NCBI RefSeq assembly: GCF_022968135.1
Contig: NZ_JALJRA010000003.1
Coordinates: 1-64,000 of the forward strand
Source: Pseudorhizobium tarimense
GTDB taxonomy: Bacteria; Pseudomonadota; Alphaproteobacteria; Rhizobiales; Rhizobiaceae
DNA length: 64,000 nt
Direction of reading: 5' to 3'
Part shown: positions 3,180-32,992 of the stretch, piece by piece
How the letters are laid out: each line of letters starts with the position of its first letter
How positions within the stretch are numbered: position 1 is the stretch's first letter
Notes under the pieces: generated by a model
Databases searched by the model: none
What the model was told of the DNA's origin: nothing
What the model saw: only the letters and a program-made list of their open reading frames with translations
Translations under genes and position numbers: made by a program

Positions 3180-4361
3180 TTATGTCGTGAGAGCGCAGCG
3201 TTCGAAGTGCCGGAATGTCATGGCCAAGATAACACCGAGAAGTCCGGTCGCGGCAACGTAGGCGGGAGCAGTGGTCCATCCGAAGCGGGAGACGATCGTC
3301 GCCAGGAGCAGCGGGCCGAGGAACTGACCGATGTTCGTCCCTTGCATGACGAAGCCGCTGATCGTGCTGACCAGGTCTCGGCGCGCCGCGTAATCCGGCA
3401 AAGCGCTCATGATCGCTGCCGGCAGGAGCCCGCCTGCGGCCGCGTAGAGAATGGCTGCAGGATAACGCAGGAGAAGCGGCAGTACCGGGCTGAAGACGAC
3501 GAAGGCGCAAAGCGTCAGCAGCGAGAAGGCGGCGACGATCAGGCACCATCGCGGCGTCCCTCGGCGGATCAGGACGCCGCCGAGAAGGTTGCCGGGGACG
3601 TTTGCGATTACAGCGAAGGCTGTCAGCAGCGAGGCTCTCGCGAGTGTAAGCCCCATGTCTTCGATCAGCATGGTCGGCAGAAAGCCGAACACGGACATGA
3701 AGCTTGCGCTGTAGAGCAGGAACATTCCAGCCAGTAGCCAGGAGGTCGGCAGTCGAGCGGTCAGCGTGGCGCCCTCGACGATTGTTGCGGATGCAGTGCC
3801 ACCGCTGCGGCCATCGGAAGACGCCGCCAGCAGTGCGACCAGGGGCACAGACGTGGCAAGTGCTGCGGCTATCCAGGCGGCGCGCCAGCCGAAGGTCGGA
3901 AGGAGGAGGGGCGAGGCCAGCATCATGGCGCCGACACCCACCGGCAACCAGCCAGCCCAGGCGGCGAATGCGAGCCCCCGATCATTGGGTGCAGTGGCTG
4001 AGGTGATAAGAGCAGGCGCGGCTACGACCGTCAGGATAAGGCCGAAACTTTCGACGATGCGGCTCGCAAACAGCTGCCAAGGCCCGACCGAAGAGGCACC
4101 CAGGGCGCTGCCCACGAACAGCAGTGACAGGGCGAGCAGCATGGCGCAGCGATGGGTCAGCTGATCGGCCATGCGCCCGACCACAAGGCCGAGCAGACTG
4201 CCCATGAGGCTCACCAGCCCCATCAGCCAGCCGGCTGAGACGAGATCCAGCCCCAGTTCCTCGTGCAGCAGCGGCAGGGCAGGCGGGACCTTCCCGACGT
4301 GAAGGGCCGCGGCGGCACCGCCCATGACGGCAATTAGCACCCTGCTCCAGCATGTTTCCAT
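3180..4361 (-). CDS. MFS transporter
   Basis: A 393-residue integral membrane protein with about twelve hydrophobic helices and the MFS loop 2-3 signature GLVVGRMADQLTHR at roughly residues 58-71. The overall pattern is like the CynX/NimT branch of small-anion and organic-acid carriers. GGAG lies six bases before the ATG. It is transcribed divergently from a GntR/FCD regulator 199 bp away. The shared region holds a TGTATACA element also found before the LigM-like gene, so transporter and demethylase are probably controlled together. Import of the methoxylated substrate is a reasonable inference, but no substrate is shown by the sequence. Confidence 0.75.
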   Translation of the reverse strand: METCWSRVLIAVMGGAAAALHVGKVPPALPLLHEELGLDLVSAGWLMGLVSLMGSLLGLVVGRMADQLTHRCAMLLALSLLFVGSALGASSVGPWQLFASRIVESFGLILTVVAAPALITSATAPNDRGLAFAAWAGWLPVGVGAMMLASPLLLPTFGWRAAWIAAALATSVPLVALLAASSDGRSGGTASATIVEGATLTARLPTSWLLAGMFLLYSASFMSVFGFLPTMLIEDMGLTLARASLLTAFAVIANVPGNLLGGVLIRRGTPRWCLIVAAFSLLTLCAFVVFSPVLPLLLRYPAAILYAAAGGLLPAAIMSALPDYAARRDLVSTISGFVMQGTNIGQFLGPLLLATIVSRFGWTTAPAYVAATGLLGVILAMTFRHFERCALTT

Positions 4362-4472
4362 TATCAGCTCCCATGGCCTTTATCGCGCCGCTTGAGAGAC
4401 ACGTGTCCCACTCGTACGGCGCTCCGATTGGTACGTCGGCCAAGCCACGAGGCCAAGGGCATTGACGTCGAA

Positions 4473-4480
4473 TGTATACA
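4473..4480. promoter_or_regulatory. Putative GntR operator TGTATACA (site 1)
   Basis: A palindromic TGTATACA lies between the divergent MFS and GntR genes. FCD-type GntR regulators commonly bind TNGTNNNACNA-like palindromes, often with a TGTATACA core. The same core is at 5391-5398, before the LigM-like gene. Confidence 0.55.
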
Positions 4481-4560
4481 CTCCTCGTGTATTTTGCTTG
4501 CCGAAAAACGAGCGGCCAGGCTAGGCTCGGTAAAAAGACAAAGGGTGAGGAGGACAGGCA

Positions 4561-5295
4561 GTGGAGGAGACCGGCAGAACAACGCACACGCTGGCGGCGC
4601 TTATGGAGTTGCGCAAGCGCATCCTGAACGGAGATTTTCCAGGGGGCACGCGGCTCTTCGAGGTGGCGCTTGCCGAAACGCTGCAGATCTCCCGCACGCC
4701 AATCCGTGAAGCGATGTCGCGCCTGGCGGAAGAGGGGCTACTCGACCGGCTGGCAAACGGTGGGTTCGTCGTTCGCAGCTTCACCTTCGCCGATGTGCTC
4801 GATGCGATCGAACTGCGGGGCGTGCTCGAAGGCACGGCCGTGCGGCTGGCCGCGGAACGTGGAGCCCCAGCGGACGCGCTCCAGGAGGTTCAGGACGTTC
4901 TTGCCCAGCTCGACGCATGCTTCGGAAGCGCACCGAGGGATGTGGATTTCGAAGCCTATTCGGATCTAAACGCCCAATTTCACACGCTTCTTACCGCCCT
5001 TTCCGGCAGTGCAGTCCTGCAGCGGGAGATCGAGCGGGCGACGCGGCTTCCGTTCGCCTCACCCTCAGCCTTCCTGTCGGGCCGCACGAACATCGACGTC
5101 TTCCGCCAGTCCCTGCAGGTCGCACAGGAGCAGCATCGGGCGCTGGTAGCGGCTATCTCGTCGCGCGAAGGGACGCGGGCCGAGTTCATCGCGCGGGAGC
5201 ACGCGCGCATTGCCAGGCGCAACCTCGAATATGTGATCCTGGAGAACCCGGATCTGATCGAGCAGGTGCCGGGGCTCGCCCTCCTCAACAGCTGA
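4561..5295 (+). CDS. GntR-family (FCD) transcriptional regulator
   Basis: A 244-residue regulator. The N-terminal winged helix-turn-helix covers about residues 10-75 (RLFEVALAETLQISRTPIREAMSRL is the classic GntR recognition region). An all-helical FCD effector domain follows, with metal-ligand candidates in DLNAQFH. The GTG start is well supported by GAGGAGG about seven bases upstream. It is divergent from the MFS gene and lies 132 bp before the O-demethylase. TGTATACA palindromes in both promoter regions make it the likely local repressor, released by a pathway compound, probably an aromatic or carboxylic acid. Confidence 0.85.
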   Translation: MEETGRTTHTLAALMELRKRILNGDFPGGTRLFEVALAETLQISRTPIREAMSRLAEEGLLDRLANGGFVVRSFTFADVLDAIELRGVLEGTAVRLAAERGAPADALQEVQDVLAQLDACFGSAPRDVDFEAYSDLNAQFHTLLTALSGSAVLQREIERATRLPFASPSAFLSGRTNIDVFRQSLQVAQEQHRALVAAISSREGTRAEFIAREHARIARRNLEYVILENPDLIEQVPGLALLNS

Positions 5296-5385
5296 GGCGT
5301 CGGGGGTGACCTCGTTGCGTACACGGAGGCAGCGGGCGTCCGGTCGGACAGGTGGAATCTCCTCTTGAAGTTTCCTCCCAAGTGC

Positions 5386-22277: not shown

Positions 22278-24314
22278 TCAGCCGCGGGAGCGGCGGCGCC
22301 TTCGCCCGCCGGCCTCACCGGCCTCGTCAAGCACCTTGCGGTCCGGCAGCGTGACCACAGATGCTAGGTTCGGGAAGCTGTCGACCTTGTTTGGAAGCGC
22401 CATCGCGTGCACGAAGAGCTCCTGAAATCTTGGTTCAAGCGCCGTCTCTATCTTCTCGATCTTTCTCACCGTTTGCTCGATCTCGCGGCGATAGTCGCGG
22501 TTCAGCAATGCCATCAACCCGCCGGTTCCCGCAGCATTGCCGACCGCCTTCACCTCCGCCAGGTCACAATCCGGGATGAGCCCCAGGACCATAGCGTACT
22601 TGGGATCGATGAAAGAGCCGAAGGCGCCGGCGAAGCGGATGCTGTCGACGGTGTCGATCCCCTGCTTCTCCATCAGCAGCTTGACCCCGGCATAAAGTGC
22701 TGCCTTCGCGAGCTGGATCGCCCGGACGTCGTTCTGCGTCACCGTGATCCGCTGCGCCCCGTCATGCAGCAGATAGGAGAAGGTACGGCCATTCTCGAGG
22801 ATACGCTCGCTTCGCGCAGCCATCGCACCATCCACGACGCCGTCTTCCGAAATGATCCCGCAGAGATACATTTCCGCGACCACCTCGATGATGGCGGAGC
22901 CGCAGATGCCGGTGATGCCGACCTTTTCGGCCTGTTCGGCAAATCCGTCCTCGTCGGACCACTTGTCGACACCGATGACGCGAAACTTCGGCTCCAGCGT
23001 CTGCGGGTCGATCCGCACACGCTCGATCGCGCCGGGGGCCGCGCGCTGACCGGACGAGATCTCGGCGCCCTCGAAGGCGGGACCAGTCGGCGACGACGCG
23101 GCCACCACGCGATCCTTGTTGCCGAGGATGATCTCGGCATTGGTTCCGACGTCGACCAGCAACATCATCCGGTCCTGCCGGTGCGGACCTTCCGAAAGGG
23201 TCGCGCCGGCCGCGTCGGCACCGACATGCCCGGCAATGCAGGGGAGGAGGTAGACGCGGGCGCCGCGGTTGATCGCAAGGGCGATCTCGCGCGACCAGGT
23301 GTGGACGGCGCCGGAGACCGCGAGCGCAAACGGTGCCTGTCCAAGCTCTGTCGGATCGATCCCGAGGAAGAGGTGGTGCATGATCGGATTGGCGACGAAG
23401 ACGGCGTCGAGGATGTTGTTCGGGTCAACGTTGGCCTCGGCGCAGACCTTCACCGTCAGCTCGTTGATCGCCTGGCGTACCGCCTTCGTCATCGCCTCGC
23501 GGCCGTCCGGGTTCATCATCACGTAGGACACCCGGCTCATCAGGTCCTCGCCGAAGCGGATCTGGGGGTTCGATGTGCCGGAGGATGCGATGACGCGTCC
23601 GGAAAGCAGCGACACGAGATGCATGGCGATCGTTGTCGAACCGATATCGCAGGCGATCCCGTAGGCCTCGTTGTGGAGGCCGGGCCAGAGCGCGATCAGG
23701 TTGGGGCGGGCGCCTTCCAGATCGCGATGGATTGCGGCGGTAACGCCCCAGTTGCCCCTGCGCAGGGTCTGCTGGACGTCCGGCATCAGATGCTGGGCGA
23801 CCAGAATGTCGGTCCAGCCCCAGTCCTTCTCCAACATCAGGTTCAGCCGATCGAGGTCGCCGAGCGGCTTGTGCATGTCCGGCTCGTCCACTTCTACATA
23901 GCAGAGCTGGATTGCGGGGTTGCGATCGAACAGCCGGTCAGTCGCGGCCTTGCGGATCACCTGCGCGTTGACGACCGTGTCCTGCGGCACGTCGATGACG
24001 AGGTCGCCGAGGATCTGTGCCGAGCAGGAGAGCCGACGGCCTTCGGGGATCGTCCGGACCTCGGCGTACCGCTGCTCCTTGGGACCAACCGGAGAGATGT
24101 GGTTGAGCGACGAGGTGATTTTGTGCTTGGCGAAGTTGCCCTGCTGCACCTCGATCTGGCAGCGTCCGCAGGTCGCGCGCCCGCCGCAGACGCTTTCGAC
24201 GTAGACGCCGAGAGAGCGTGCGGCCTCCAGCACGCTGGTGCCGACTGCAAAGCGTCCCCGTTTACCGGACGGCATGAAGAGGACGAGGGCGTCCCTTTCG
24301 GACATTTCGGTCAT
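22278..24314 (-). CDS. Corrinoid-protein reductive activator (2Fe-2S/ASKHA, RACo-like)
   Basis: A 678-residue protein. The N-terminal 2Fe-2S ferredoxin domain has Cys43, Cys49 and Cys52 (CGGRATCGRC) and Cys97. A linker and the C-terminal ASKHA ATPase domain follow (ACDIGSTTIAMHL, LLVDVGTNAEIILG). This layout (RACo/DUF4445 type) belongs to enzymes that use ATP to reduce inactive Co(II) corrinoid to Co(I). In an aerobe frequent Co(I) oxidation makes such repair essential. The C-terminus is a basic tail, GGRRRRRSRG, like tails on other proteins of this cluster. The next gene upstream ends 11 bp before its start, so it is the last gene of a minus-strand operon. Confidence 0.8.
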   Translation of the reverse strand: MTEMSERDALVLFMPSGKRGRFAVGTSVLEAARSLGVYVESVCGGRATCGRCQIEVQQGNFAKHKITSSLNHISPVGPKEQRYAEVRTIPEGRRLSCSAQILGDLVIDVPQDTVVNAQVIRKAATDRLFDRNPAIQLCYVEVDEPDMHKPLGDLDRLNLMLEKDWGWTDILVAQHLMPDVQQTLRRGNWGVTAAIHRDLEGARPNLIALWPGLHNEAYGIACDIGSTTIAMHLVSLLSGRVIASSGTSNPQIRFGEDLMSRVSYVMMNPDGREAMTKAVRQAINELTVKVCAEANVDPNNILDAVFVANPIMHHLFLGIDPTELGQAPFALAVSGAVHTWSREIALAINRGARVYLLPCIAGHVGADAAGATLSEGPHRQDRMMLLVDVGTNAEIILGNKDRVVAASSPTGPAFEGAEISSGQRAAPGAIERVRIDPQTLEPKFRVIGVDKWSDEDGFAEQAEKVGITGICGSAIIEVVAEMYLCGIISEDGVVDGAMAARSERILENGRTFSYLLHDGAQRITVTQNDVRAIQLAKAALYAGVKLLMEKQGIDTVDSIRFAGAFGSFIDPKYAMVLGLIPDCDLAEVKAVGNAAGTGGLMALLNRDYRREIEQTVRKIEKIETALEPRFQELFVHAMALPNKVDSFPNLASVVTLPDRKVLDEAGEAGGRRRRRSRG

Positions 24315-24325
24315 GATGCCTCAAT

Positions 24326-25294
24326 TCACTCCGTCACCGCACCTGCACCGACGCGTGCCGCACGGCCGCCGCGGCGTCCACCGCCGGCTGCCGCTGCAGC
24401 TGGGGCAGGGGCTCCAGCAGCGCCGCCCTCGGCAGGCTTGTAGTCGCGGTAGGTCTTGATCCAGTTGTAGCAGTTCTCGTCGGTGCCGTTCAGCACGTTA
24501 GCCGCGCGCACGGCCTCCATCTCCTGCGGGCGGCAGGGGTTCATGATCGCGCTCGTCATGCCAGCGCCAATCACCATTGGGATGAAGCCGGCATTGATGC
24601 CATGGCGATGCGGCAGGCCGAAGGAGATGTTGGAAAGGCCGCAGGTCGTGTTGACCTTCAACTCCTCGCGCAGCCGCCGCAGGAGCGCAAAAACCTGCAG
24701 CCCGGCCGTACCCATGGCGCCGATCGGCATCACCAGCGGGTCGACCACGATGTCGTGCGGCTTGATTCCGTAGTCGGCGGCACGCTCCACGATCTTCTTT
24801 GCCACGGCGAAGCGCACGTCCGGATCCTGACTGATGCCTGTCTCGTCGTTGGAGATTGCGACAACCGGCACATCGTACTTCTTGCAAAGTGGCAAGATGG
24901 CCTCGAGCTTTTCCTCTTCGCCCGTCACGGAGTTCACCAGCGGACGACCCTTAGCAACCTTCAGGGCCGCTTCGATGGCGGCCGTTACCGAGCTGTCGAT
25001 CGACAAAGGAACGTCGACCAGACCCTGGACGATTTCCAGCGTCTGAACGAGGAGCGGCGGCTCGGTCTCGTTAGGGTTGACGGCGGTGACCCCGGCATTG
25101 ACGTCAAGCATCGTGGCGCCCGCTGCCACCTGTTCCAGCGCATCCTTGATCACGGTGTCGAAATTGCCCTCGATCATCTCTGCCGCGAGCTTCTTGCGTC
25201 CGGTCGGATTGATGCGCTCGCCGATGACGCAGAAGGGCTGATCGAAGCCGATCACGACTTCGCGGGTGGCGGATGCGACGATGGTGCGGGTCAT
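24326..25294 (-). CDS. Methyltetrahydrofolate:corrinoid methyltransferase (AcsE/MtgA-like)
   Basis: A 322-residue pterin-binding TIM barrel. It has GERINPTGR near residue 25, the strand MLDVNAG, SIDSS, and the Asn/Asp pterin contacts in VVAISND and IVVDPLVMP. The family moves the methyl group between a corrinoid protein and tetrahydrofolate. Here it should take the methyl from the corrinoid protein loaded by the MttB-like enzyme and make methyl-THF. After the barrel there is a tail of about 35 residues rich in Ala, Gly and Arg (AAGGGRRGGRAARVGAG), absent from the core family. A 68-bp gap separates it from metF upstream. Confidence 0.8.
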   Translation of the reverse strand: MTRTIVASATREVVIGFDQPFCVIGERINPTGRKKLAAEMIEGNFDTVIKDALEQVAAGATMLDVNAGVTAVNPNETEPPLLVQTLEIVQGLVDVPLSIDSSVTAAIEAALKVAKGRPLVNSVTGEEEKLEAILPLCKKYDVPVVAISNDETGISQDPDVRFAVAKKIVERAADYGIKPHDIVVDPLVMPIGAMGTAGLQVFALLRRLREELKVNTTCGLSNISFGLPHRHGINAGFIPMVIGAGMTSAIMNPCRPQEMEAVRAANVLNGTDENCYNWIKTYRDYKPAEGGAAGAPAPAAAAAGGGRRGGRAARVGAGAVTE

Positions 25295-25362
25295 GCGGTT
25301 CTCCAGTGCCTTGCTCGGCGGTGCTATGTCATGCAGCTCTGGCGCTGGCCAAAGAGCGGGTG

Positions 25363-26454
25363 TCAGTGCGGCTTGCTTGCCGCGATGTCGGCCATGTCCT
25401 GCTGGTTTTCCTCCTTGCCCTGGCGGATCTCCTCCAGCCGCTCCGAAACCGTCGCGTCCGTGGGATTGGGTTCATGCTTCCACGGCTTGCGACCCTTCAG
25501 CACGCCCGATTCGTGGACGATCTCGGCAACATATTCTTCCTGCCGATAGGCCATCACATGAATGCCGGAGACGCCCTGGATCTCCTTCACCTCGTTGATG
25601 ACGTCGATGCAGAGCTGCTTGCCTTCGCGCTTCTGGTCCTGCGCGCCTTCCAGCCGCGCAATGATGCTGTCGGGGATGTGGATGCCAGGCACGTTGGAGC
25701 GGATCCAGCGGGCGGTCTTTGCAGAGGCGAGGGGGCCGACGCCGACGAGGATGAAGCATTTTTCGTGCAGGCCGAGATCACGGACCTTTGCCATATAGTC
25801 GCGAAACATCGGTACGTCGAAGCAGTACTGGCTCTGGACGAATTGTGCGCCGGCGGCGATCTTCTTCGCCAGGCGATAGGGGCGGAAGTCATAGGGTGGC
25901 GCAAACGGGTTGATGGCGGCGCCGAGGAAGACATTGGGCGGCGAGGTGAGTTTGCGGCCCGACAGGAACTTTGCCTCGTCGCGCATGGTACGGACCGTTT
26001 CCAGCAGCGACATGCTGTCGAGGTCGAAAACAGGCTTGGCGCCCGGCTGGTCGCCCGCCTGCACGCCGTCTCCGGTCAGGCAAAGGATGTTCTGAACGCC
26101 CATGGCGGAGGCGCCGAGGACGTCGCCTTGGATCGCGATGCGGTTCTTGTCGCGGCAGGCGATCTGCATGATCGGCGCATATCCCATGCGCGTTAGCAAA
26201 GCACAGATGCCGACGGAGGACATGTGGCAATTGGCGCCGGACGCGTCGACCGCATTGATGCCGTCCACCCAGCCATCGAAGACTGCTGCGCGGTCGTAGA
26301 CGTCCTGGGGGTTGGCACTGTCCGGCGGATTGAGCTCCGCGGTGACGGCGAACTCGCCGCGGCGCAGCACCCGTTCCAGCCGTCCTCGCGAGGCATGGCC
26401 GGGCAGGGGTTCAAGGGGAGCGCCGAGATCCGTCGGATGAATGTCGGGGCTCAT
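25363..26454 (-). CDS. metF: Methylenetetrahydrofolate reductase of the corrinoid cluster
   Basis: A 363-residue MTHFR TIM barrel: FAVTAELNPPDSANP (the catalytic-Glu strand), NILCLTGDG, GAAINPFAPP, QFVQSQYCFDV and GIHIPDSIIARLEGA. ATG 26454 overlaps the stop of the MetV-like gene (ATGA), showing translational coupling. In acetogens a MetF-MetV pair forms the methylene-THF reductase; here, with a demethylase upstream, it likely oxidises methyl-THF. It differs strongly from the metF at 6.9 kb and is not its duplicate. Confidence 0.85.
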   Translation of the reverse strand: MSPDIHPTDLGAPLEPLPGHASRGRLERVLRRGEFAVTAELNPPDSANPQDVYDRAAVFDGWVDGINAVDASGANCHMSSVGICALLTRMGYAPIMQIACRDKNRIAIQGDVLGASAMGVQNILCLTGDGVQAGDQPGAKPVFDLDSMSLLETVRTMRDEAKFLSGRKLTSPPNVFLGAAINPFAPPYDFRPYRLAKKIAAGAQFVQSQYCFDVPMFRDYMAKVRDLGLHEKCFILVGVGPLASAKTARWIRSNVPGIHIPDSIIARLEGAQDQKREGKQLCIDVINEVKEIQGVSGIHVMAYRQEEYVAEIVHESGVLKGRKPWKHEPNPTDATVSERLEEIRQGKEENQQDMADIAASKPH

Positions 26455-27056
26455 GGGGCGGCACCCTCGGATGCTTGCCGGCGCGCGGCGGCCTCCGCCG
26501 TCACCCGCAGCCAAGACGAGGTTTCCCGAAGCGACTGGTTGACCGGTCGCTGGACGTTGAGGATCGCGTCACCTTTGACCATGTTGCGCGACCCTTCCCA
26601 CGCCTTCACCCAGACGCACGGCATGTCCGGCTCGACCTCGCAGTTTCCATCGGCGCGCACGCCGCCGCAGGGGCCGTTGCGCAGCTGCTTGGGACAGTTC
26701 ATCGGGCACGACATGCCGGTCGAGGACAGGATGCACTGGCCGCACATGCGGCAGTCGAACAGCATGCCCTTCACCCGTCTCTCGACGAAGGTGACGGGGG
26801 CTTCGACCCGGCTGTAGCCGATAGCGTTCCAGAGCGGGTGCAGCAGCAGGAACGCCTGGGCGAACCGGGCATAGAACCACTCCAGCAGACGCGAATGGCG
26901 GATGGACCATAACCGGATGGAATAGCGGCGCTGGACGCGGCGGTTGGGCGAGACATCACCGGGCACATACGCGCCGGTGGCTGCCTTCTTGGCCGCGCCG
27001 GCATTGCCGATCTTGGGCTTGTCTCCGGCAGGGCTTGGCGCGTAGATTTCAGGCAT
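26451..27056 (-). CDS. metV: MetV-like MTHFR C-terminal (zinc/Fe-S Cys-rich) protein
   Basis: A 201-residue protein with the Cys-rich MTHFR_C domain: CRMCGQCILSSTGMSCPMNCPKQLRNGPCGG at about residues 100-132, plus NCEV and PCVWVKAW. In acetogens MetV is the zinc-binding partner of MetF. The protein overlaps metF downstream by 4 bp and the small gene upstream by 8 bp, so all three are coupled. The first 60 residues are basic and of low complexity. The symbol is by similarity of domain and context. Confidence 0.8.
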   Translation of the reverse strand: MPEIYAPSPAGDKPKIGNAGAAKKAATGAYVPGDVSPNRRVQRRYSIRLWSIRHSRLLEWFYARFAQAFLLLHPLWNAIGYSRVEAPVTFVERRVKGMLFDCRMCGQCILSSTGMSCPMNCPKQLRNGPCGGVRADGNCEVEPDMPCVWVKAWEGSRNMVKGDAILNVQRPVNQSLRETSSWLRVTAEAAARRQASEGAAP

Positions 27057-27351
27057 GCTCGCGACCTCCGGCCTTCACGAGGTCGACAAGGCGCTGCTTG
27101 TCATAGGCTGCTTCAAGCTCGGTGGCGGCCTTGTCGGCCTCGGCTTCCAGATCGTCCGAAACCGCAACCGGATCTCCTTTCCGCCATTCGGCCAGATAGT
27201 CGCCCGTTTCGGCCGCGCCGCTTCGCATGGCGCACATGTCGATCGCCTCAGTAAAACGGAGCGAAAGCTCCCGCTTGGCAGCCTTGCGTCCCTGCTTGAT
27301 GATCACCTGCGCCGGAATGTCCCGCCAGTAGACGACGATACGGTCGGCCAT
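27049..27351 (-). CDS. Small 'virulence factor' domain protein coupled to MetV
   Basis: A 100-residue protein, MADRIVVYWRDIPAQVIIKQGRK..., matching the short conserved domain annotated only as virulence factor (PF13769-like). It includes AKRELSLRFTEAIDMCAMR and DYLAEWRKGDP. The function is unknown. It overlaps the MetV gene by 8 bp and so is part of the methyl-THF module; an accessory or structural role with MetF/MetV is plausible but unproven. ATG 27351 is preferred over an upstream ATG 27 bp away because the family begins with this motif. Confidence 0.7.
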   Translation of the reverse strand: MADRIVVYWRDIPAQVIIKQGRKAAKRELSLRFTEAIDMCAMRSGAAETGDYLAEWRKGDPVAVSDDLEAEADKAATELEAAYDKQRLVDLVKAGGREHA

Positions 27352-27472
27352 GCACTGCTCCCTGTTTTTCAGCAGCATGCACGGGGGGCGGGGCAGGGAC
27401 TGCGCTTGCCACGACGTCGCACAGAGCGAAAAGCGACGCGCCTGGGTTCGGCGATGGGAATCATGCTTCCGT

Positions 27473-28114
27473 CTACAGTGACCGCAGGGACCGGGTCAGG
27501 TCGCCATAGCCGGTAAAGCGATACTCGTACTCGAGCCCAAGATAGTCGGCTGCAGCCTTGGCCTTTGCCTGCAGTGACTCGTCGGCCTCCTGGCTCAGGT
27601 AGACGAGCTTGCGGTAATTGCCGAAATAGATGTCCTTGAGCTGCGGATAGCGGTCGAGTCCCAGAGGCTCGATAACGAAGGCATCGAACTGCCGCGCCAG
27701 AAAGTCGGTCAGGAAGAAGCTTAGCAGATCCTCGTCTGTCTTGGCCTTGAAGACGTCGTTGCCGGAGAAAAAGGAGTAGCAATGGGGGCCGGCGATACGG
27801 GCAATTCCCTCTCGCTCACAGAGCCGATCGAGATCCCCACCGGTGCCGCAGTCGGCATAGGCAAAAAAGATTCTCTCGAAGCCCCGCGCACGGGCACTCC
27901 GGAGGGCATCTTCCAATCCCGGCACGATCTTTTGCGGATATGCGTGCCAGATCGCCGGCAGGCACTGGAGGTCGATGTGGTGGAGGCCGTGCTGGTCGCT
28001 AATCGCCAAAATCTCACGCGCAATCGCGCCGCACGCAATGACGTGAACCTTTTCGTGATTGAGGCGTTCCTGTGACGGAAGGCGATGTTCCGCCTTTTTT
28101 TGATCGACAACCAT
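27473..28114 (-). CDS. DUF1638 protein
   Basis: A 213-residue protein of the DUF1638 family: VHVIACGAIAREILAI near the start, then CLPAIWHAYPQKIVPGLE, IFFAYADCGTGGDLD, GPHCYSFF and EPLGLDRYPQL. It has several conserved Cys and His residues. DUF1638 genes recur next to corrinoid methyltransferase genes and their role is not known; metal or corrinoid handling has been guessed. It has no strong Shine-Dalgarno at ATG 28114, so the true start could lie nearer residue 20. Its 5' end is 14 bp from the divergent entericidin gene. Confidence 0.75.
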   Translation of the reverse strand: MVVDQKKAEHRLPSQERLNHEKVHVIACGAIAREILAISDQHGLHHIDLQCLPAIWHAYPQKIVPGLEDALRSARARGFERIFFAYADCGTGGDLDRLCEREGIARIAGPHCYSFFSGNDVFKAKTDEDLLSFFLTDFLARQFDAFVIEPLGLDRYPQLKDIYFGNYRKLVYLSQEADESLQAKAKAAADYLGLEYEYRFTGYGDLTRSLRSL

Positions 28115-28128
28115 TGGAGTACTTTATC

Positions 28129-28287
28129 ATGACGTCCAAGACAGTCACGGTCATCGCCGCTCTGTTCGTAACGGCCGCCGCTCTCAGCTCGTGCGGCAAC
28201 ACCATTCGCGGCGTCGGTCAGGATACGGCCAATGCCGTTGACGCGACGCAGGCTGCCGGCAGCAACGTCGCTAACGCTGCAGAATAA
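28129..28287 (+). CDS. Entericidin-type small lipoprotein
   Basis: A 52-residue peptide: hydrophobic signal with lipobox LSSC (Cys near residue 22), then the typical entericidin tail NTIRGVGQDTANAVDATQAAG. Entericidins are small cell-envelope lipoproteins; their role in rhizobia is unclear. ATG 28129 follows GGAG. It sits on the opposite strand, wedged between DUF1638 and the corrinoid protein gene, and is followed directly by a strong terminator. Confidence 0.8.
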   Translation: MTSKTVTVIAALFVTAAALSSCGNTIRGVGQDTANAVDATQAAGSNVANAAE

Positions 28288-28295
28288 TTTGAAGT

Positions 28296-28325
28296 GGCCT
28301 CCGCTTTGCGGAGGCCATCGTTTTC
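28296..28325 (+). terminator. Terminator between entericidin and the corrinoid protein gene
   Basis: A perfect 9-bp stem GGCCTCCGC / GCGGAGGCC with a TTT loop, followed by ATCGTTTTCT, is a good Rho-independent terminator on the plus strand. It lies between two convergent genes and may also slow minus-strand transcription out of the corrinoid gene into DUF1638. Confidence 0.7.
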
Positions 28326-29023
28326 TATCGCCCGCCAAGCGAGTTGTGCTTGCGGCGAACGAAGTCCTTTGCCGTTTCCACGGCAACCGCCGCATCGCGG
28401 CAGTAGGCGTCCGCACCGACGGCTTTGCCAAACTCTTCGTTGAGCGGCGCACCACCGACCAGCACCACGTAGTCGTCCCGAATGCCCTTTTCCTTCATCG
28501 TGTCGATGACGACCTTCATATAGGGCATGGTCGTCGTCAGTAGCGCCGACATGCCAAGGATGTCCGGCTTTTCGCGCTCGAGTGCTTCCAGATAGTTTTC
28601 GACGGGATTGTTGATGCCGAGGTCGATGACGTCGAAGCCTGCCCCTTCCATCATCATGCCGACGAGGTTCTTGCCGATGTCGTGGATATCGCCCTTCACC
28701 GTGCCGATCACCATCTTGCCCTGCTTGGGCGCGCCGGTAGCGGCCAGCAGCGGACGCAAGATGTTCATGCCCGCCTTCATGGCGTTGGCGGAGAGCAGAA
28801 CTTCCGGAACAAAGAGAATGCCGTCGCGGAAGTCGACCCCGACGATGCGCATACCTTCGACCAGCGCCTGGGTCAGGACGTCGTAGGGCGCCCAGCCGCG
28901 GTCTAGCAGGATCTGGGTGGCTTCCTCGATCTCCTCCTTCAGCCCGTCGTAGAGGTCGTCGTGCATCTGCTGCACGAGCTCCTCGTCGGAGAGTTCAGAC
29001 AGAATGATGTCGTCTTCAGACAT
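28325..29023 (-). CDS. Cobalamin-binding corrinoid protein (MttC-like)
   Basis: A 232-residue methyltransferase-associated corrinoid protein. An N-terminal four-helix cap domain (about 10-95) is followed by a B12-binding Rossmann domain with the base-off cobalt ligand motif GDIHDIGKN (His114), then ALLTTTMPYMK and VGGAPLNEEF. It should carry the methyl group from the MttB-like enzyme to the folate methyltransferase. ATG 29023 (MSEDD) is chosen; an earlier ATG (MEALMSED) is possible. It is divergent from the MttB-like gene, so the 250-bp region between them likely holds the key promoters. Confidence 0.85.
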   Translation of the reverse strand: MSEDDIILSELSDEELVQQMHDDLYDGLKEEIEEATQILLDRGWAPYDVLTQALVEGMRIVGVDFRDGILFVPEVLLSANAMKAGMNILRPLLAATGAPKQGKMVIGTVKGDIHDIGKNLVGMMMEGAGFDVIDLGINNPVENYLEALEREKPDILGMSALLTTTMPYMKVVIDTMKEKGIRDDYVVLVGGAPLNEEFGKAVGADAYCRDAAVAVETAKDFVRRKHNSLGGR

Positions 29024-29272
29024 GAGCGCTTCCATTGACCGGGCCACGACATCGTGCCGGGACCACCAACATGATGAAACGCAAAAGCTTTCCCAACTTC
29101 CTTGAAAACGACTCCCGCTTGTTGAAAAAGCGACGGCGCCCTACTTGATCGATGTCATGTCTGTTCTGCGCAACCGCGTGGCGCAGAAAGGCAGGGTTTG
29201 CCTGTCCCGCCGTCCTAGCATGGGAAAAACAGCGATGGCATGCGCTGCAACGGCGCGATGGTGAGGACGAGC

Positions 29273-30844
29273 ATGGACGATCTCAATCAACCAACGGAAG
29301 CAGCGGTCGGTGGACGCCGTTCACGTGGCGAGCGCGGGGCTGCCGGCCGTCGTGCATCACGCGGCGGGGCAGGGCCCGGGCCGTCTCTGCCGCACATCAC
29401 GCGCAAGATCCGCGTCTATGCGGTCCTCGATGAAGAAGGCCTGCAGCTCATCGAGCGCAATTCCGACACGATCCTCGAGGAAATTGGCATCGAGTTCCGG
29501 GATGATGCGGAAGCGCTGGAACTCTGGGCGAAGGCCGGTGCGGATGTCCGAGGCCAGCGGGTGCATTTCCCCAAGGGCCTGTGTCGCGAGTTGCTGAAGA
29601 CCGCACCGAGCGAGTTTACCTGGCATGCGCGCAATCCGGAACGCAGCGTCCATATCGGCGGGAAGGCGACGGTGTTTGCACCCGTCTACGGACCTCCCTT
29701 CGTTCGCGACCTTGACGGTGAACGTCGCTATGCGACGATCGAGGACTTCCGCAACTTCGTGAAGCTCGCCTACATGGCGCCGTCGATGCACTCGTCGGGC
29801 GGGACGGTGTGCGAGCCGGTAGACGTGCCGGTGAACAAGCGCCATCTCGACATGATCTATAGCCACATTAAGTATTCCGACAAACCCTTCATGGGGTCGG
29901 TCACCGCGCCTGAGCGGGCGGAAGACACGATTGCCATGGCGAAGATGGTGTTCGGCGACGAGTTCGTCGAGAACAATTGCGTCACGCTCAACCTGATCAA
30001 TGCCAACTCGCCGATGGTGTTTGACGAGACGATGCTGGGCGCACTCAAGGTCTACGCCCGTCACAACCAGGCCTGCGTCGTGTCTCCTTTCATCCTTTCC
30101 GGCGCCATGAGTCCGGTGACGGTTGCGGGAACGCTGACGCAGATTCTTGCCGAAGTTCTGGCGGGTGCGGCGCTGACGCAGCTCGTGCGTCCCGGCGCGC
30201 CGGTTCTCTTCGGCACCTTCGCAGCGTCGATCTCGATGCAGTCAGGGGCGCCGACCTTCGGAACGCCGGAGCCGTCGCTCGTCTCCTATGGCGCAGCGCA
30301 ACTTGCCCGTCGCCTTGGGCTGCCCTTCCGTACGGGCGGATCGCTTTGCGCCTCGAAGGTGCCCGATGCGCAGGCGGCGCACGAATCGTCGAACACGCTG
30401 AACACGACCCTTCTTGCCGGCACGAACTTCGTACTGCATGCCGCCGGCTGGCTCGAAGGTGGGCTCGTTTCGTCCTACGAGAAGTTCATGATCGATCAGG
30501 ATCAACTCGGCATGATGCAGAAGCTCGCCGAGGGTGTCGATCTGTCGGAGGCCGGGCAGGCGCTCGATGCCATTCGCGAGGTCGGTCCGGGCAGCCACTA
30601 TCTCGGCTGCGCCCATACGCAAGCGCATTTCCAGACCGCCTTTTATCGCTCGGCATTGGCCGATAACAATTCTTTCGAGCAGTGGGAGATCGAAGGCCAG
30701 AAGCGGATCGAAGAGCGGGCCAATGCCCTCTGCCGTTCCTGGCTCGACGCCTATGAGGCACCGCCGCTCGACCCGGCGATTGACGAGGCGCTGCTTACCT
30801 TCATCGCCAGCCGCAAGGAGTCTATGCCGGACGCCTTCACCTGA
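29273..30844 (+). CDS. MttB-superfamily corrinoid methyltransferase (non-pyrrolysine)
   Basis: A 523-residue MttB-family TIM barrel with IRVYAVLDEEGLQLIERNSDTILEEIGIEF near the start, PVYGPPFVRDLDGERRYATIEDF, and SPFILSGAMSPVTVAGTL. The frame has no in-frame amber codon, so it belongs to the non-pyrrolysine branch that includes the glycine betaine methyltransferase MtgB and relatives acting on other quaternary amines. It would demethylate such an amine onto the corrinoid protein encoded divergently. The first 45 residues are an unusual Gly/Arg-rich leader (GGRRSRGERGAAGRR). GAGG lies before ATG 29273. The exact amine cannot be told from sequence; ProX/ProV and DMGDH neighbours favour a betaine. 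Confidence 0.8.
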   Translation: MDDLNQPTEAAVGGRRSRGERGAAGRRASRGGAGPGPSLPHITRKIRVYAVLDEEGLQLIERNSDTILEEIGIEFRDDAEALELWAKAGADVRGQRVHFPKGLCRELLKTAPSEFTWHARNPERSVHIGGKATVFAPVYGPPFVRDLDGERRYATIEDFRNFVKLAYMAPSMHSSGGTVCEPVDVPVNKRHLDMIYSHIKYSDKPFMGSVTAPERAEDTIAMAKMVFGDEFVENNCVTLNLINANSPMVFDETMLGALKVYARHNQACVVSPFILSGAMSPVTVAGTLTQILAEVLAGAALTQLVRPGAPVLFGTFAASISMQSGAPTFGTPEPSLVSYGAAQLARRLGLPFRTGGSLCASKVPDAQAAHESSNTLNTTLLAGTNFVLHAAGWLEGGLVSSYEKFMIDQDQLGMMQKLAEGVDLSEAGQALDAIREVGPGSHYLGCAHTQAHFQTAFYRSALADNNSFEQWEIEGQKRIEERANALCRSWLDAYEAPPLDPAIDEALLTFIASRKESMPDAFT

Positions 30845-30943
30845 AAGGGTCCCGAGGCCGCCAGGGAGCAAGGCGGCGCCGCCGCCGTCGCCGACTTCAT
30901 CCAAGCGGAGGTCTGGCGGCCGCACTACAAGCTGAGATGAGAC

Positions 30944-31618
30944 ATGGTGAGCGGGTCATCGGTCCTGTCCGAAATCGCTGCGGTGCTCGAGCCGCAGGGG
31001 ATTTTCGTGCGCGGCGTCGTTAGCTTCCACGATGGGAACGGGCCGTCGCTTTCGTACGGCAGTTGCGCCCGAACCGTGGTTCTGCTCGGCAATATCGGCG
31101 GATCGATCTGGAGGAGCTTCGACCATTGGCGTACGAGCGATCAGGGCCCGGATCCGCTCGATACTTGGTCGCGTGTGGCGATCGATCGGGTCGCAGGCGC
31201 ATTGGGCGCAACTGCCCTCTACCCCTCGGATCAACCCTGGCAGCCGTTTCAGCGATGGGCGACGCAGGCCGAGGGGCTGGCGCCTTCGCCGCTCGGGATC
31301 CTCATTCATCCACGCTTCGGCCTATGGCATGGCTATCGGGGTGCCCTGGCTTTTGCGGAAGACCTAGGTGCGGCGCCGGTTGAGAGCACTGGTCATCCCT
31401 GCACGCATTGTATAGAGAAGCCGTGCCTTGCCACCTGTCCGGCAGGAGCCCTTGCGCCAACGGGTTTCGCGGTAAACCCGTGCCGATCTTACCTGGACTC
31501 GGATGGGGGCAGGGCCACTTGCATGGCCAACGGCTGCGCCGCCCGCAACGCCTGTCCTGTCGGCGCCGATTTTCGCTATTCGGCGGAGCAGCTGCGCTTC
31601 CACATGGCGGCCCTGTAG
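30944..31618 (+). CDS. 4Fe-4S protein with a QueG/CblC-like region
   Basis: A 224-residue protein. The C-terminal half has two ferredoxin-type clusters: CTHCIEKPCLATCPAGAL near residue 152, and a second set of Cys ending CMANGCAARNACPVGADF. The arrangement, with NPCRSYL between, recalls the epoxyqueuosine reductase QueG. The N-terminal 140 residues (GNIGGSIWRSFDHW, DPLDTWSRVAIDRVA) resemble the cobalamin-binding fold shared by QueG and CblC, but weakly. It lies 99 bp after the MttB-like gene. A role as redox partner or second reactivation factor for the corrinoid is plausible; it is unlikely to be QueG itself, being far shorter. Confidence 0.6.
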   Translation: MVSGSSVLSEIAAVLEPQGIFVRGVVSFHDGNGPSLSYGSCARTVVLLGNIGGSIWRSFDHWRTSDQGPDPLDTWSRVAIDRVAGALGATALYPSDQPWQPFQRWATQAEGLAPSPLGILIHPRFGLWHGYRGALAFAEDLGAAPVESTGHPCTHCIEKPCLATCPAGALAPTGFAVNPCRSYLDSDGGRATCMANGCAARNACPVGADFRYSAEQLRFHMAAL

Positions 31619-31625
31619 GTCGGGT

Positions 31626-31976
31626 CTAGATGTTTGCCTTGGGATAGGCGCGCTCCAGGCCGCCGGATGCAACGAGGCCTTCGCGGAAGGCGGCGTGGGC
31701 GGCGTGCTGGCTTGCCTTTGCGGCTTCCATCAGGCGCATCTGCAGGCGGGCCGGCGCCTCGTTCCCCAGCCATTCGCCGCACTTCTGCAGCTTCAGCGTA
31801 TTGAGTAAGCGCGCTTCCGCCTGCCGGTCGAGATAAAGATGCAAGCCATCGAGCAGCGTATCGTCGGAGGCGGGGTTGTCCATCAAGAGCTTCAGCCAGG
31901 AGCGGTTTTCGTCGCTCATGCCGGACAGGCTGTCGGCAACCATGTCGCGATTCGCGATCGGGGCGATATTCGTCAT
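31626..31976 (-). CDS. Hypothetical helical protein coupled to the homocysteine methyltransferase
   Basis: A 116-residue soluble, helix-rich protein, MTNIAPIANRDMVADSLSG..., without a domain I recognise. Later it has LLDGLHLYLDRQAEARLLNTLKL and ends ERAYPKANI. The ATG lies two bases after the stop of the upstream homocysteine methyltransferase gene, with AGGA inside that gene's end, so it is translationally coupled. It has one Cys and no signal peptide. Its tight coupling suggests a dedicated subunit or chaperone of the methyltransferase; this is inference. Confidence 0.6.
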   Translation of the reverse strand: MTNIAPIANRDMVADSLSGMSDENRSWLKLLMDNPASDDTLLDGLHLYLDRQAEARLLNTLKLQKCGEWLGNEAPARLQMRLMEAAKASQHAAHAAFREGLVASGGLERAYPKANI

Positions 31977-31978
31977 GC

Positions 31979-32992
31979 TCAGGTCCTTCGCCGGCGGCGT
32001 TCGCGCGTGCTCTCGCCACCGGATTCGATTGCGGTCTTGTTGCGCAGGGGTCCGATCCGTTCGACGATCGTTCCGAGCGTCGGGCGAGGGCCGGGGGTGT
32101 AGTCGTCGAGGGCCTGGCGCATGGCAGCCAGGTGCTCGCATGAGGTGCCGCAGCAGCCGCCGATGATCTTGGCTCCCGCATCGCGGGCAAGTCTCGCGTA
32201 GTCGGCCATCAGCGGCGGCGTGCCGGAATAGTAGATCTCGGCGCCGCGAAATTCGGGGATGCCGCAATTGCCCTTGACGATGGTGATGGCGGCCGGATCT
32301 GCAGCGGTCATGTCGAGAAGACTGGAGAGAATGTCGGACGCGCCGACGCCACAATTTGCGCCAACGGCGGCCGGACCGCCACCGATGTCACCCGCGACCC
32401 CATGGATGTCCTTCGGGTCGAGGCCCATCATCGTCTTGCCGGCAGTGTCGAAGGAACCGGTGAAGGTGAAGGGAAGGCCGACCTTGCTGGCGGCCTCGGC
32501 GGCAGCGCGGATCTCTTCCGGGGAGGACATCGTTTCGATCCAGGCGACGTCGACGCCTCCGGCTTTCAGGCCCTCGAGCTGCTCGACGAAAGCCGCGACG
32601 GCGTCCTCGTAAGACATCGCGCCAAGGGGTTGCAGGAGCTCGCCCGTCGGGCCGACCGAACCAGCCACAATCACCTTGCGCAGCGCGCGATCGGCCACAG
32701 CCCGGGCGATCTCTGCTGCGCGCTTGTTGAGCGCGAAGACGCGATCCTGCGCCTGGTGCAGTTTCAGCCGGTGGCGGGTACCGCCGAAGGAGTTGGTGAG
32801 GATAATGTCGGCGCCGGCATCAACGAAATCCCGGTGCAGCTTGTCGATGCGCTCCGGATGACTTTCGTTCCACAGTTCTGGCGCCTCACCAGCCTCCAGC
32901 CCCATTGCGAAAAGGTTGGTGCCGGTGGCGCCATCGGCCAGCAGGACACCCTTTTCAGCCAGAAGGTCGGTGAGGGGATTTGCAGCAGTCAT
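31979..32992 (-). CDS. Betaine-homocysteine-type S-methyltransferase
   Basis: A 337-residue homocysteine S-methyltransferase barrel. It has LLADGATGTNLFAMGL near residue 18, ILTNSFGGTRHRL, and the three zinc Cys of the family: one in GANCGVG and two in GGCCGTS. It resembles BHMT and bacterial betaine:homocysteine methyltransferases, which make methionine from homocysteine using a betaine or other methyl donor. ATG 32992 is preferred; an upstream in-frame ATG gives an unlikely extension. Its C-terminus ends in a basic tail, RERRRRRT. It is followed by a coupled hypothetical gene and preceded after 60 bp by the ProV-like gene. Confidence 0.8.
   Translation of the reverse strand: MTAANPLTDLLAEKGVLLADGATGTNLFAMGLEAGEAPELWNESHPERIDKLHRDFVDAGADIILTNSFGGTRHRLKLHQAQDRVFALNKRAAEIARAVADRALRKVIVAGSVGPTGELLQPLGAMSYEDAVAAFVEQLEGLKAGGVDVAWIETMSSPEEIRAAAEAASKVGLPFTFTGSFDTAGKTMMGLDPKDIHGVAGDIGGGPAAVGANCGVGASDILSSLLDMTAADPAAITIVKGNCGIPEFRGAEIYYSGTPPLMADYARLARDAGAKIIGGCCGTSCEHLAAMRQALDDYTPGPRPTLGTIVERIGPLRNKTAIESGGESTRERRRRRT

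Follow-up and report, generated by a model that had tools for sequence, protein, structure and literature searches.

The closest described relatives of the system reported here are found in Ruegeria pomeroyi and Phaeobacter inhibens and comprise the subunit families MtgB, MtgC, MtgD and MtgE together with RamA (DUF4445) and DUF1638, with MetF2 encoded beside MtgD (PMC12478193, PMC5764234). The system is presented in PMC12478193 as a major ocean route of betaine demethylation and as the methionine synthase of some bacteria, with an aerobic-type MtgC distinct from anaerobic MtgC, while PMC5764234 reports a fitness link for DUF1638 in Phaeobacter and the reactivation of E. coli MetH by its own C-terminal domain. 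The main texts of both papers, searched by term, yielded no description of the terminal arginine-rich tails considered below. The HcyMT, pterin-binding and B12 modules of the locus analyzed here match regions 3-322, 326-595 and 636-840 of fused MetH, with the difference that in MetH they are covalently linked and that none of eight copies (0/8) carries a basic C-terminal tail. Anaerobic corrinoid methyltransferase systems, represented by RACo (3zyy), MeTr (1f6y), MtgB (9yce and 2qne) and the Methanosarcina MttB-MttC pair (7xcl and 7xcn), share the enzyme families and the reaction logic. The chains of 3zyy and 1f6y end at most 3 residues from the matched core and that of 9yce starts 4 residues before it, hence these enzymes have no tail; 2qne and 7xcl possess 22 and 28 unmatched N-terminal residues, known by length alone.

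The window analyzed here is a stretch of 64,000 nucleotides from Pseudorhizobium tarimense (contig NZ_JALJRA010000003.1). Judged by family and gene content, established from profile matches, the locus is a MtgBCDE split B12-dependent methionine synthase / glycine-betaine demethylase accompanied by RamA, DUF1638 and MetF2, and, compared by description, it contains the same subunit families as the Ruegeria and Phaeobacter system. On the minus strand, it encodes a RamA / RACo-like corrinoid reductive activase with 2Fe-2S and ASKHA domains (22281-24314; DUF4445/PF14574 at 294 bits, PF17651, PF17650 and PF00111), followed by a stand-alone, pterin-binding MtgD-type methyltetrahydrofolate:corrinoid methyltransferase (24329-25294; NF005719 at 402 bits, above cutoff) beside a MetF2-type methylenetetrahydrofolate reductase (25366-26457; PF02219). 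Next are a protein of the MTHFR C-terminal domain family (DUF5981; 26454-27056; PF12225), a 100-residue PF13769 (“Virulence_fact”) protein whose C-terminal half is acidic (27052-27351; 86.5 bits) and the B12-reactivation partner DUF1638 (27476-28114; PF07796), which together with RamA means that both reactivation-protein families are present. The corrinoid (B12-binding) hub protein (28328-29023, minus strand) is a stand-alone protein of the MtgC type, matching PF02310 and PF02607, and scores 212.7 bits against the MtgC profile NF047996, under its cutoff of 370. The MtgB-type MttB-family methyltransferase lies on the plus strand (29273-30841; PF06253 at 777.7 bits), is the sole PF06253 match in the genome and likelier starts at the ATG at 29273, an invariant Met column in alignment A3. 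MtgE, a subunit of the betaine/homocysteine methyltransferase type, is again on the minus strand (31982-32992; NF005718 at 561 bits, cutoff 338), with a profile that spans its tail. Unlike the described Ruegeria and Phaeobacter system, the genome also encodes a fused MetH; no match to MetE was found in it.

Four of these proteins end or begin with an arginine-rich tail, and all four tails, as well as the acidic N-terminal end of MtgC, were found in the window at the ends given by a sequence-only reading. RamA ends with GGRRRRRSRG (22281-22310, minus strand) and MtgE with RERRRRRT (31982-32005, minus strand), while MtgD carries a C-terminal Arg/Gly tail beyond an Ala/Gly linker (GGGRRGGRAARVGAGAVTE; 24329-24385, minus strand) and MtgB an N-terminal Arg-rich segment (GGRRSRGERGAAGRRASRGG; 29309-29368, plus strand). 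The acidic N-terminal extension of MtgC is encoded at 28970-29023 on the minus strand, and MetF2, the MTHFR C-terminal domain protein and DUF1638 are untailed in the window. The same reading placed the tails on different folds and at different ends; the ends and the families do differ, but TIM-barrel families account for three of the four tailed proteins, hence these are different families and not four unrelated folds. Charged disordered tails that cluster enzymes are a general principle, in which pathway partners bear short, low-complexity charged ends, and none is known to us to have been described among corrinoid methyltransferases. No description of the tails was found in a literature search that covered few subscription papers and preprints, which makes this a limited absence. 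The tails are the new element, the MtgBCDE and RamA system itself being already known, and they bear on the question of how several separate partners can share a single corrinoid protein.

That such tails are normally missing from these families is true of distant relatives only; orthologues are nearly always tailed. In our own frame search (identity of at least 44%), at least four Arg/Lys in the last 30 residues were found in 147/149 RamA, 132/133 MtgD and 45/45 MtgE (43 distinct sequences), and at least four Arg/Lys within the 45 residues preceding the core in 94/95 MtgB. Loci L001-L031 and L202-L213 were excluded from these counts, as most of them recur in larger sets; identical proteins in two loci account for two pairs of MtgD, four of MtgB and two of MtgE, and none of RamA. 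The exceptions are two RamA proteins, from L043, which continues for more than 30 residues past the Arg cluster, and L160, where MtgD is tailed, one MtgD (L161) and one MtgB (L185, where the locus is cut). The MtgE tail was also present in 30/30 sequences of another locus set that overlaps the 45. A stricter test was passed by 114/121 RamA, 99/112 MtgD and 13/15 MtgE-family matches, one of which (L095) is a fused MetH, and in all the RamA and MtgD rows listed as failing it, the Arg cluster was visible by eye. The window's own MtgD scores negative in the strict counts because its tail consists only of RRGGRAAR. Tailed systems span many families of Alphaproteobacteria, were found in 12/12 genomes of another class with a RamA of at least 44% identity, and also occur in the betaproteobacterium Azoarcus. 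Thus, in this survey of orthologous clusters, the tails are kept in close relatives, where their absence had been named as an argument against a role.

Measured as a terminal stretch of 15 residues with a net charge of at least +4, C-terminal tails were counted in 86/118 RamA, 104/105 MtgD and 8/12 MtgE, and N-terminal tails in 53/64 MtgB, against a background of 22/1156 C-termini and 51/1156 N-termini among the other genes of 121 loci, called by a simple codon-score script and including some spurious genes. In the genome of the window, of which the window itself and sixteen stretches of 20 kb were sampled, a liberal C-terminal test was passed by 12 of the 296 called genes, RamA and MtgE being two of the 12. 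Within the clusters, the tails are largely confined to the clients of MtgC: the tail test was passed by 0/68 MetF2, 0/87 MtgC, 1/90 DUF1638 and 4/64 MTHFR C-terminal domain proteins. Two-part MetH, in which the homocysteine domain is separate, was untailed in both parts in 8/8 genomes, so that the tails are not a general feature of split B12-dependent methionine synthases. Similarly, tails are generally absent from distant RamA-type corrinoid systems and are hence not a mark of all corrinoid systems in these bacteria. RamA is also present in 14 of the 16 genomes with fused or two-part MetH.

The N-terminal segment of MtgB is shared by a larger family. All 47 scored MttB loci (50 fetched, with L244, L274 and L275 dropped) have an N-terminal Arg segment, with a net charge of at least +4 in 42/47, and an Arg-rich N-terminus was found in 17/17 scored MttB paralogues of at most 30% identity, with GGRxAR recognizable by eye in 12 of the 17. 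A single genome can hold up to fifteen MttB-family matches, fragments among them. The sequence of the solved chain 4yyc includes the same N-terminal Arg segment as MtgB; our literature search found no publication on 4YYC. A Tat-type export signal was considered for the twin arginines of MtgB and excluded upon sequence inspection, as no hydrophobic stretch follows. A structure prediction for MttB (pLDDT 34, from a 17-sequence alignment) was set aside.

Because the tails are found on the four MtgC-client enzymes, are conserved, and are mostly absent outside this set, they probably help to hold the loose parts of the system together. MtgC would be visited in turn by RamA, which would reduce its Co(II) to Co(I), by MtgB and its paralogues, which would transfer methyl groups from betaine-type substrates onto the cobalt, by MtgD, which would exchange the methyl group to or from tetrahydrofolate, and by MtgE, which would pass it to homocysteine. 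Fused MetH holds comparable modules with covalent linkers; here, each client would rely on a flexible linker and an Arg cluster. These clusters could all bind, weakly and reversibly, to the same acidic surface, for which the N-terminal region of MtgC, itself acidic and adjoining the B12 cap, is the likeliest candidate, so that docking would raise the local concentration of the clients and lock none of them in place. We give close to an even chance to this reading, in which the tails are selected docking tags that gather the clients on the B12 hub MtgC, and for which we infer the binding, MtgC as the partner and the kinetic benefit from sequence patterns.

In the orthologous loci, the tails are common to the four partners of MtgC and co-occur with its acidic extension, whose net charge ranges from -4 to -10 with a mean of -7.3 (108 orthologous sequences). 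Seven corrinoid proteins of other systems (+1, -2, -3, -3, -3, -4 and -6) are shifted from MtgC but overlap with it, given tailed cases of low charge (-4 in Paracoccus, L065 and L048) and tail-less outgroups that are also acidic (-4 in Gemmatirosa and -6 in the haloarchaeal Halomicrococcus). Between tail charge and extension charge, the correlation is absent in RamA (rho -0.05, n 99) and weak in MtgD (rho -0.29, p 0.003, uncorrected for relatedness; n 98, L161 omitted). The tails of RamA and MtgD are slightly more similar within a genome (4.60) than between genomes (4.37; p 0.013, n 67), while neither RamA and MtgE (p 0.19, n 9) nor MtgD and MtgE (p 0.99, n 8) showed such an excess. The acidic extension of MtgC points to a candidate partner by correlation. 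Because its charges overlap those of the outgroups, less weight falls on MtgC as the hub and on the tag code considered below, and more on another partner or on a role in catalysis.

The tails could instead cluster the enzymes on a partner other than MtgC, such as the PF13769 protein, DUF1638, RNA or ribosomes, polyphosphate or an anionic membrane, an explanation that we hold to be a distinct minority possibility. The weak covariation with the MtgC extension is consistent with it, as is the preference for Arg over Lys, which also fits phosphate binding, and Arg clusters like these can bind RNA and membranes as well. Furthermore, a PF13769 gene was found in 96/100 MtgC-holding loci longer than 9 kb, versus 0/10 control loci (nine without tails, and L161), and the C-terminal half of its product bears on average -6.6 charges (115 loci), which makes it a candidate further component of the system on the basis of gene neighborhood and composition. 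No publication on the PF13769 protein was found in our literature search. However, the gene is missing near MtgC in four long loci (L062, L145, L163 and L223), three of which are tailed (L062, L163 and L223), and a general anionic binder would not account for the lack of tails in MetF2, fused MetH and two-part MetH.

It is unlikely that the tails act on catalysis and not on assembly, by opening or stabilizing a cap pose of MtgC for each client or by steering the order of exchange. The cofactor to be reached is the same for every client, and the extension takes in the start of the first predicted cap helix in a model of moderate quality (pLDDT 66), used for helix placement only. This overlap means that the acidity of MtgC may have another cause than tail binding. 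In the RamA of G789, the end of the core is altered and the tail retained, which a catalytic role could accommodate. However, the structural model that would support such a role is weak, and linker lengths and sequences vary widely between orthologues, which suits loose tethering more than the action of a precise lever.

As judged from codon use and composition, the tails are under protein-level selection. RamA columns 673 and 674 are invariant Arg in 58 sequences and use six and five codons, respectively. In MtgD, R307, R308, G309, G310, R311 and R314 are invariant in 57 sequences (at least 85% identity), the four Arg of the window's tail among them. The invariant tail Arg columns are encoded by four to six codons, AGA and AGG included. 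In orthologues, Arg makes up 0.80-0.92 of the basic residues in the tails versus 0.39-0.65 in the cores, and the tails stay Arg-rich in genomes of 32-33% GC. In a RamA of only 44% identity, the linker is gone and QRNRRRRRER is kept. It is therefore very improbable that the tails have no role here, being a habit of high-GC genomes related to solubility or to the end of translation, or low-complexity drift: the genomes are mostly GC-rich, as are the codons of Arg, Gly and Ala, but chance and GC drift are excluded by the background counts, the low-GC genomes and the codon turnover, and the tails are missing from most proteins that these clusters encode besides the clients.

Docking on MtgC could extend to a private arginine tag code, in which a terminal Arg tag on distinct families, including the many MttB-family proteins of a single genome, would admit them to a shared B12 carrier, interchangeable electrostatic docking would take the place of covalent linkers, and new demethylases would be recruited by tagging; we regard this as conceivable but somewhat doubtful. 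If the tails are docking tags, the tag may make new demethylases recognizable and could be used to attach further clients to the hub. In G107, a homocysteine-methyltransferase-like protein (L303) encoded next to two-part MetH has the terminus VRRRKRK, hence ends of this kind are not entirely exclusive to the MtgC system. Genome G287 encodes two systems about 47 kb apart. The second, diverged one no longer has a tail on MtgD, and its corrinoid proteins carry charges of -3 and -3, while the orthologous one has kept its tails and has a corrinoid protein of -5.

The window holds a minus-strand gene cluster (22281-29023), from which the MtgB gene diverges (29273-30841, +), with the MtgE gene lying beyond it (31982-32992, -). 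Family searches of the window recognised RamA/RACo, MtgD, MetF2, an MTHFR C-terminal protein, DUF1638, MtgC, MtgB and MtgE. Judged from sequence, the cluster is the split B12-dependent methionine synthase for which the first genetic demonstration came from Phaeobacter inhibens (PMC5764234). PMC12478193 presents the same system of Ruegeria pomeroyi as acting jointly as methionine synthase and glycine betaine demethylase. The closest named relative of the window RamA is the Rhizobium rhizophilum activator (88% identity). The window's own genome also encodes a fused MetH, and no match to MetE was found in it. A Cys-rich, ferredoxin-like protein (30944-31615, +) and a small protein (31629-31976, -) lie between MtgB and MtgE, neither matching a Pfam family; in S. 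meliloti, a homologue of the former adjoins MtgB.

The sequence-only reading had described arginine-rich tails on the activator RamA, the folate methyltransferase MtgD, the homocysteine methyltransferase MtgE and the MttB-like enzyme MtgB, and all four were confirmed as quoted. They share a common layout, a hydrophobe-poor linker followed by an arginine cluster, which RamA, MtgD and MtgE carry C-terminally and MtgB N-terminally. The recurrent forms, defined by eye, are GGRRRRRxR in RamA, RERRRRR or RRGGRAAR in MtgD, RxRRRRR in MtgE and GRRxRG...AARRAxR in MtgB. The enzymes of the system are already known; term searches in PMC12478193, PMC5764234 and PMC12366255 (main texts) and the listings of wider literature searches turned up no description of the conserved tag. 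The curated profile NF005718 already covers the MtgE tail, and the annotators' models therefore contain it.

Of the 289 genomes sampled from the class, 58 gave RamA matches (E <= 1e-50); the match in G081 is a distant paralogue. A survey of orthologous clusters, drawn from genome draws, 80 named contigs and follow-up fetches, extended the tails well beyond the window: at identities of at least 44%, four or more Arg/Lys in the last 30 residues (for MtgB, in the 45 residues before the core) were present in RamA 147/149, MtgD 132/133, MtgB 94/95 and MtgE 45/45. In another class of the same phylum, RamA matches occurred in 15 of 229 genomes, of which 12 at 44% identity or more are tailed and three at 28-33% are untailed. 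L146, a MAG whose name places it in the gammaproteobacteria, is tailed as well, as are Azoarcus sp. KH32C, Paracoccus methylovorus and Sinorhizobium meliloti Ak57. The N-terminal MtgB segment recurs in the sequence of 4yyc, a solved S. meliloti chain of the MttB family (525 residues). In L160 the RamA tail has been lost, and the frames just past its stop contain no tail-like arginine run.

A stricter measure, requiring near the end a 15-residue stretch with a net charge of at least +4 and at most one hydrophobic residue, was passed by RamA 86/118, MtgD 104/105, MtgE 8/12 and MtgB (N-terminus) 53/64, against a background of 22/1156 C-terminal and 51/1156 N-terminal passes among other genes of the same loci. 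Arginines are invariant at RamA 673 and 674 and MtgD 307, 308, 311 and 314 (57-58 close orthologues), and MtgB (46 sequences) has five Arg columns without any substitution in the sequences that cover them. At each of these columns in the three proteins, four to six different Arg codons are used, the Arg share of basic residues is 0.80-0.92 in tails versus 0.39-0.65 in cores, and three proteins of a genome at 32-33% GC keep tails reading SRQNRRRRS, GRQRARRRG and NRRTRRRR. Because the arginines are invariant, their codons varied, their share high and the low-GC tails kept, they are maintained at the protein level, and these features, together with the background counts, rule out a by-product of base composition.

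The tails are nearly restricted to the clients of the corrinoid protein MtgC. Among the other proteins of the system, MetF2 (0/68), the MTHFR C-terminal protein (4/64), DUF1638 (1/90) and MtgC itself (0/87) seldom or never pass the tail test. A basic tail is missing from fused MetH in 8/8 cases and likewise, in 8/8, from both proteins of another, two-part MetH, with RamA co-present in 14 of the 16 genomes carrying these enzymes. The two-part form, a separate homocysteine domain plus a folate-B12-activation protein, constitutes a second, untailed kind of split methionine synthase (alphaproteobacteria G015, G148, G159, G107, G196, G279, G012 and G009; L300-L307). RamA, and the folate enzyme where matched, are likewise untailed in distant corrinoid systems (L153, L154, L224-L226) and in those of Halomicrococcus, Acetoanaerobium, Gemmatirosa and Thiodictyon. 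PF06253 proteins were found in 17/17 chosen RamA-positive genomes versus 1/20 chosen RamA-negative ones, in the latter as fragments. These genomes yielded 50 MttB loci, and in every one of the 47 scorable loci the 40-residue segment preceding the core contains six or more Arg/Lys. The 17 MttB proteins at 30% identity or less are no exception, and GGRxAR can be read by eye in 12 of them. The tag thus tracks the role of client of this MtgC, not the protein family. One protein is at odds with a tag exclusive to the Mtg system: a homocysteine-methyltransferase-like frame adjoining a two-part MetH (L303 of G107, 4322-5338, -; 339 residues; 35% identity over about 116 residues) ends in VRRRKRK. Demethylase-type proteins are unusually expanded in the 2.8 Mb genome G034, which has fifteen PF06253 matches, some of them fragmentary.

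MtgC of tailed systems carries an acidic N-terminal extension, in the window SEDDIILSELSDEELVQQ, with a mean net charge of -7.3 (range -4 to -10; 108 readable sequences). A moderate MtgC model (pLDDT 66 overall) has a helix at residues 13-26. The same region has charges of +1 (L154), -2 (L224), -3 (L153) and -3 and -3 (L161 pair) in corrinoid proteins of other systems, and of -4 in Gemmatirosa and -6 in the haloarchaeon Halomicrococcus among the outgroups; haloarchaeal proteins tend to be acidic. The charges of tailed systems are shifted yet overlapping, a tailed Paracoccus being at -4. Genome G287 contains two mtg-like systems separated by about 47 kb: the orthologous one (L162) has full tails and an extension of -5, and the other (L161) has two diverged corrinoid proteins at -3, has lost its MtgD tail and keeps a RamA tail in degenerate form, which hints, from a single case with a small charge difference, that tail and hub go together. 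On a Halomicrococcus gelatinilyticus plasmid (L295, 6164-10870), a corrinoid protein, a RamA-like activator, DUF1638 and an MtrH-like protein form a cluster that links DUF1638 to corrinoid activation outside bacteria.

Most likely, each tail would act as a weak, reversible tether keeping its client near MtgC, such tethers standing in for the linkers that hold MetH together; the tails would bind a partner, presumably MtgC, and alter the kinetics. The part of the acidic extension in this mechanism is correlative. Over the loci other than L161, extension charge shows no relation to the charge of RamA tails (rho -0.05, n 99) and a weak one to that of MtgD tails, relatedness being ignored (rho -0.29, p 0.003, n 98). 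RamA and MtgD tails are slightly more similar within than between genomes (4.60 vs 4.37, p 0.013, n 67), an effect absent from the pairings of either with MtgE (p 0.19, n 9; p 0.99, n 8). A saturating electrostatic tether could leave no charge correlation, yet covariation offers nothing that positively favours MtgC as the tail partner. A rival partner is the small PF13769 protein (27052-27351, -; 100 aa), an almost invariable neighbour of the system: it occurs in 96 of the 100 MtgC loci longer than 9 kb versus none of ten controls (L161 and nine tail-less loci), and its C-terminal half has a mean charge of -6.6 (115 loci). Its Pfam family is named 'Virulence_fact', and records of S. meliloti and Azoarcus call it 'virulence factor', a name that is probably misleading.
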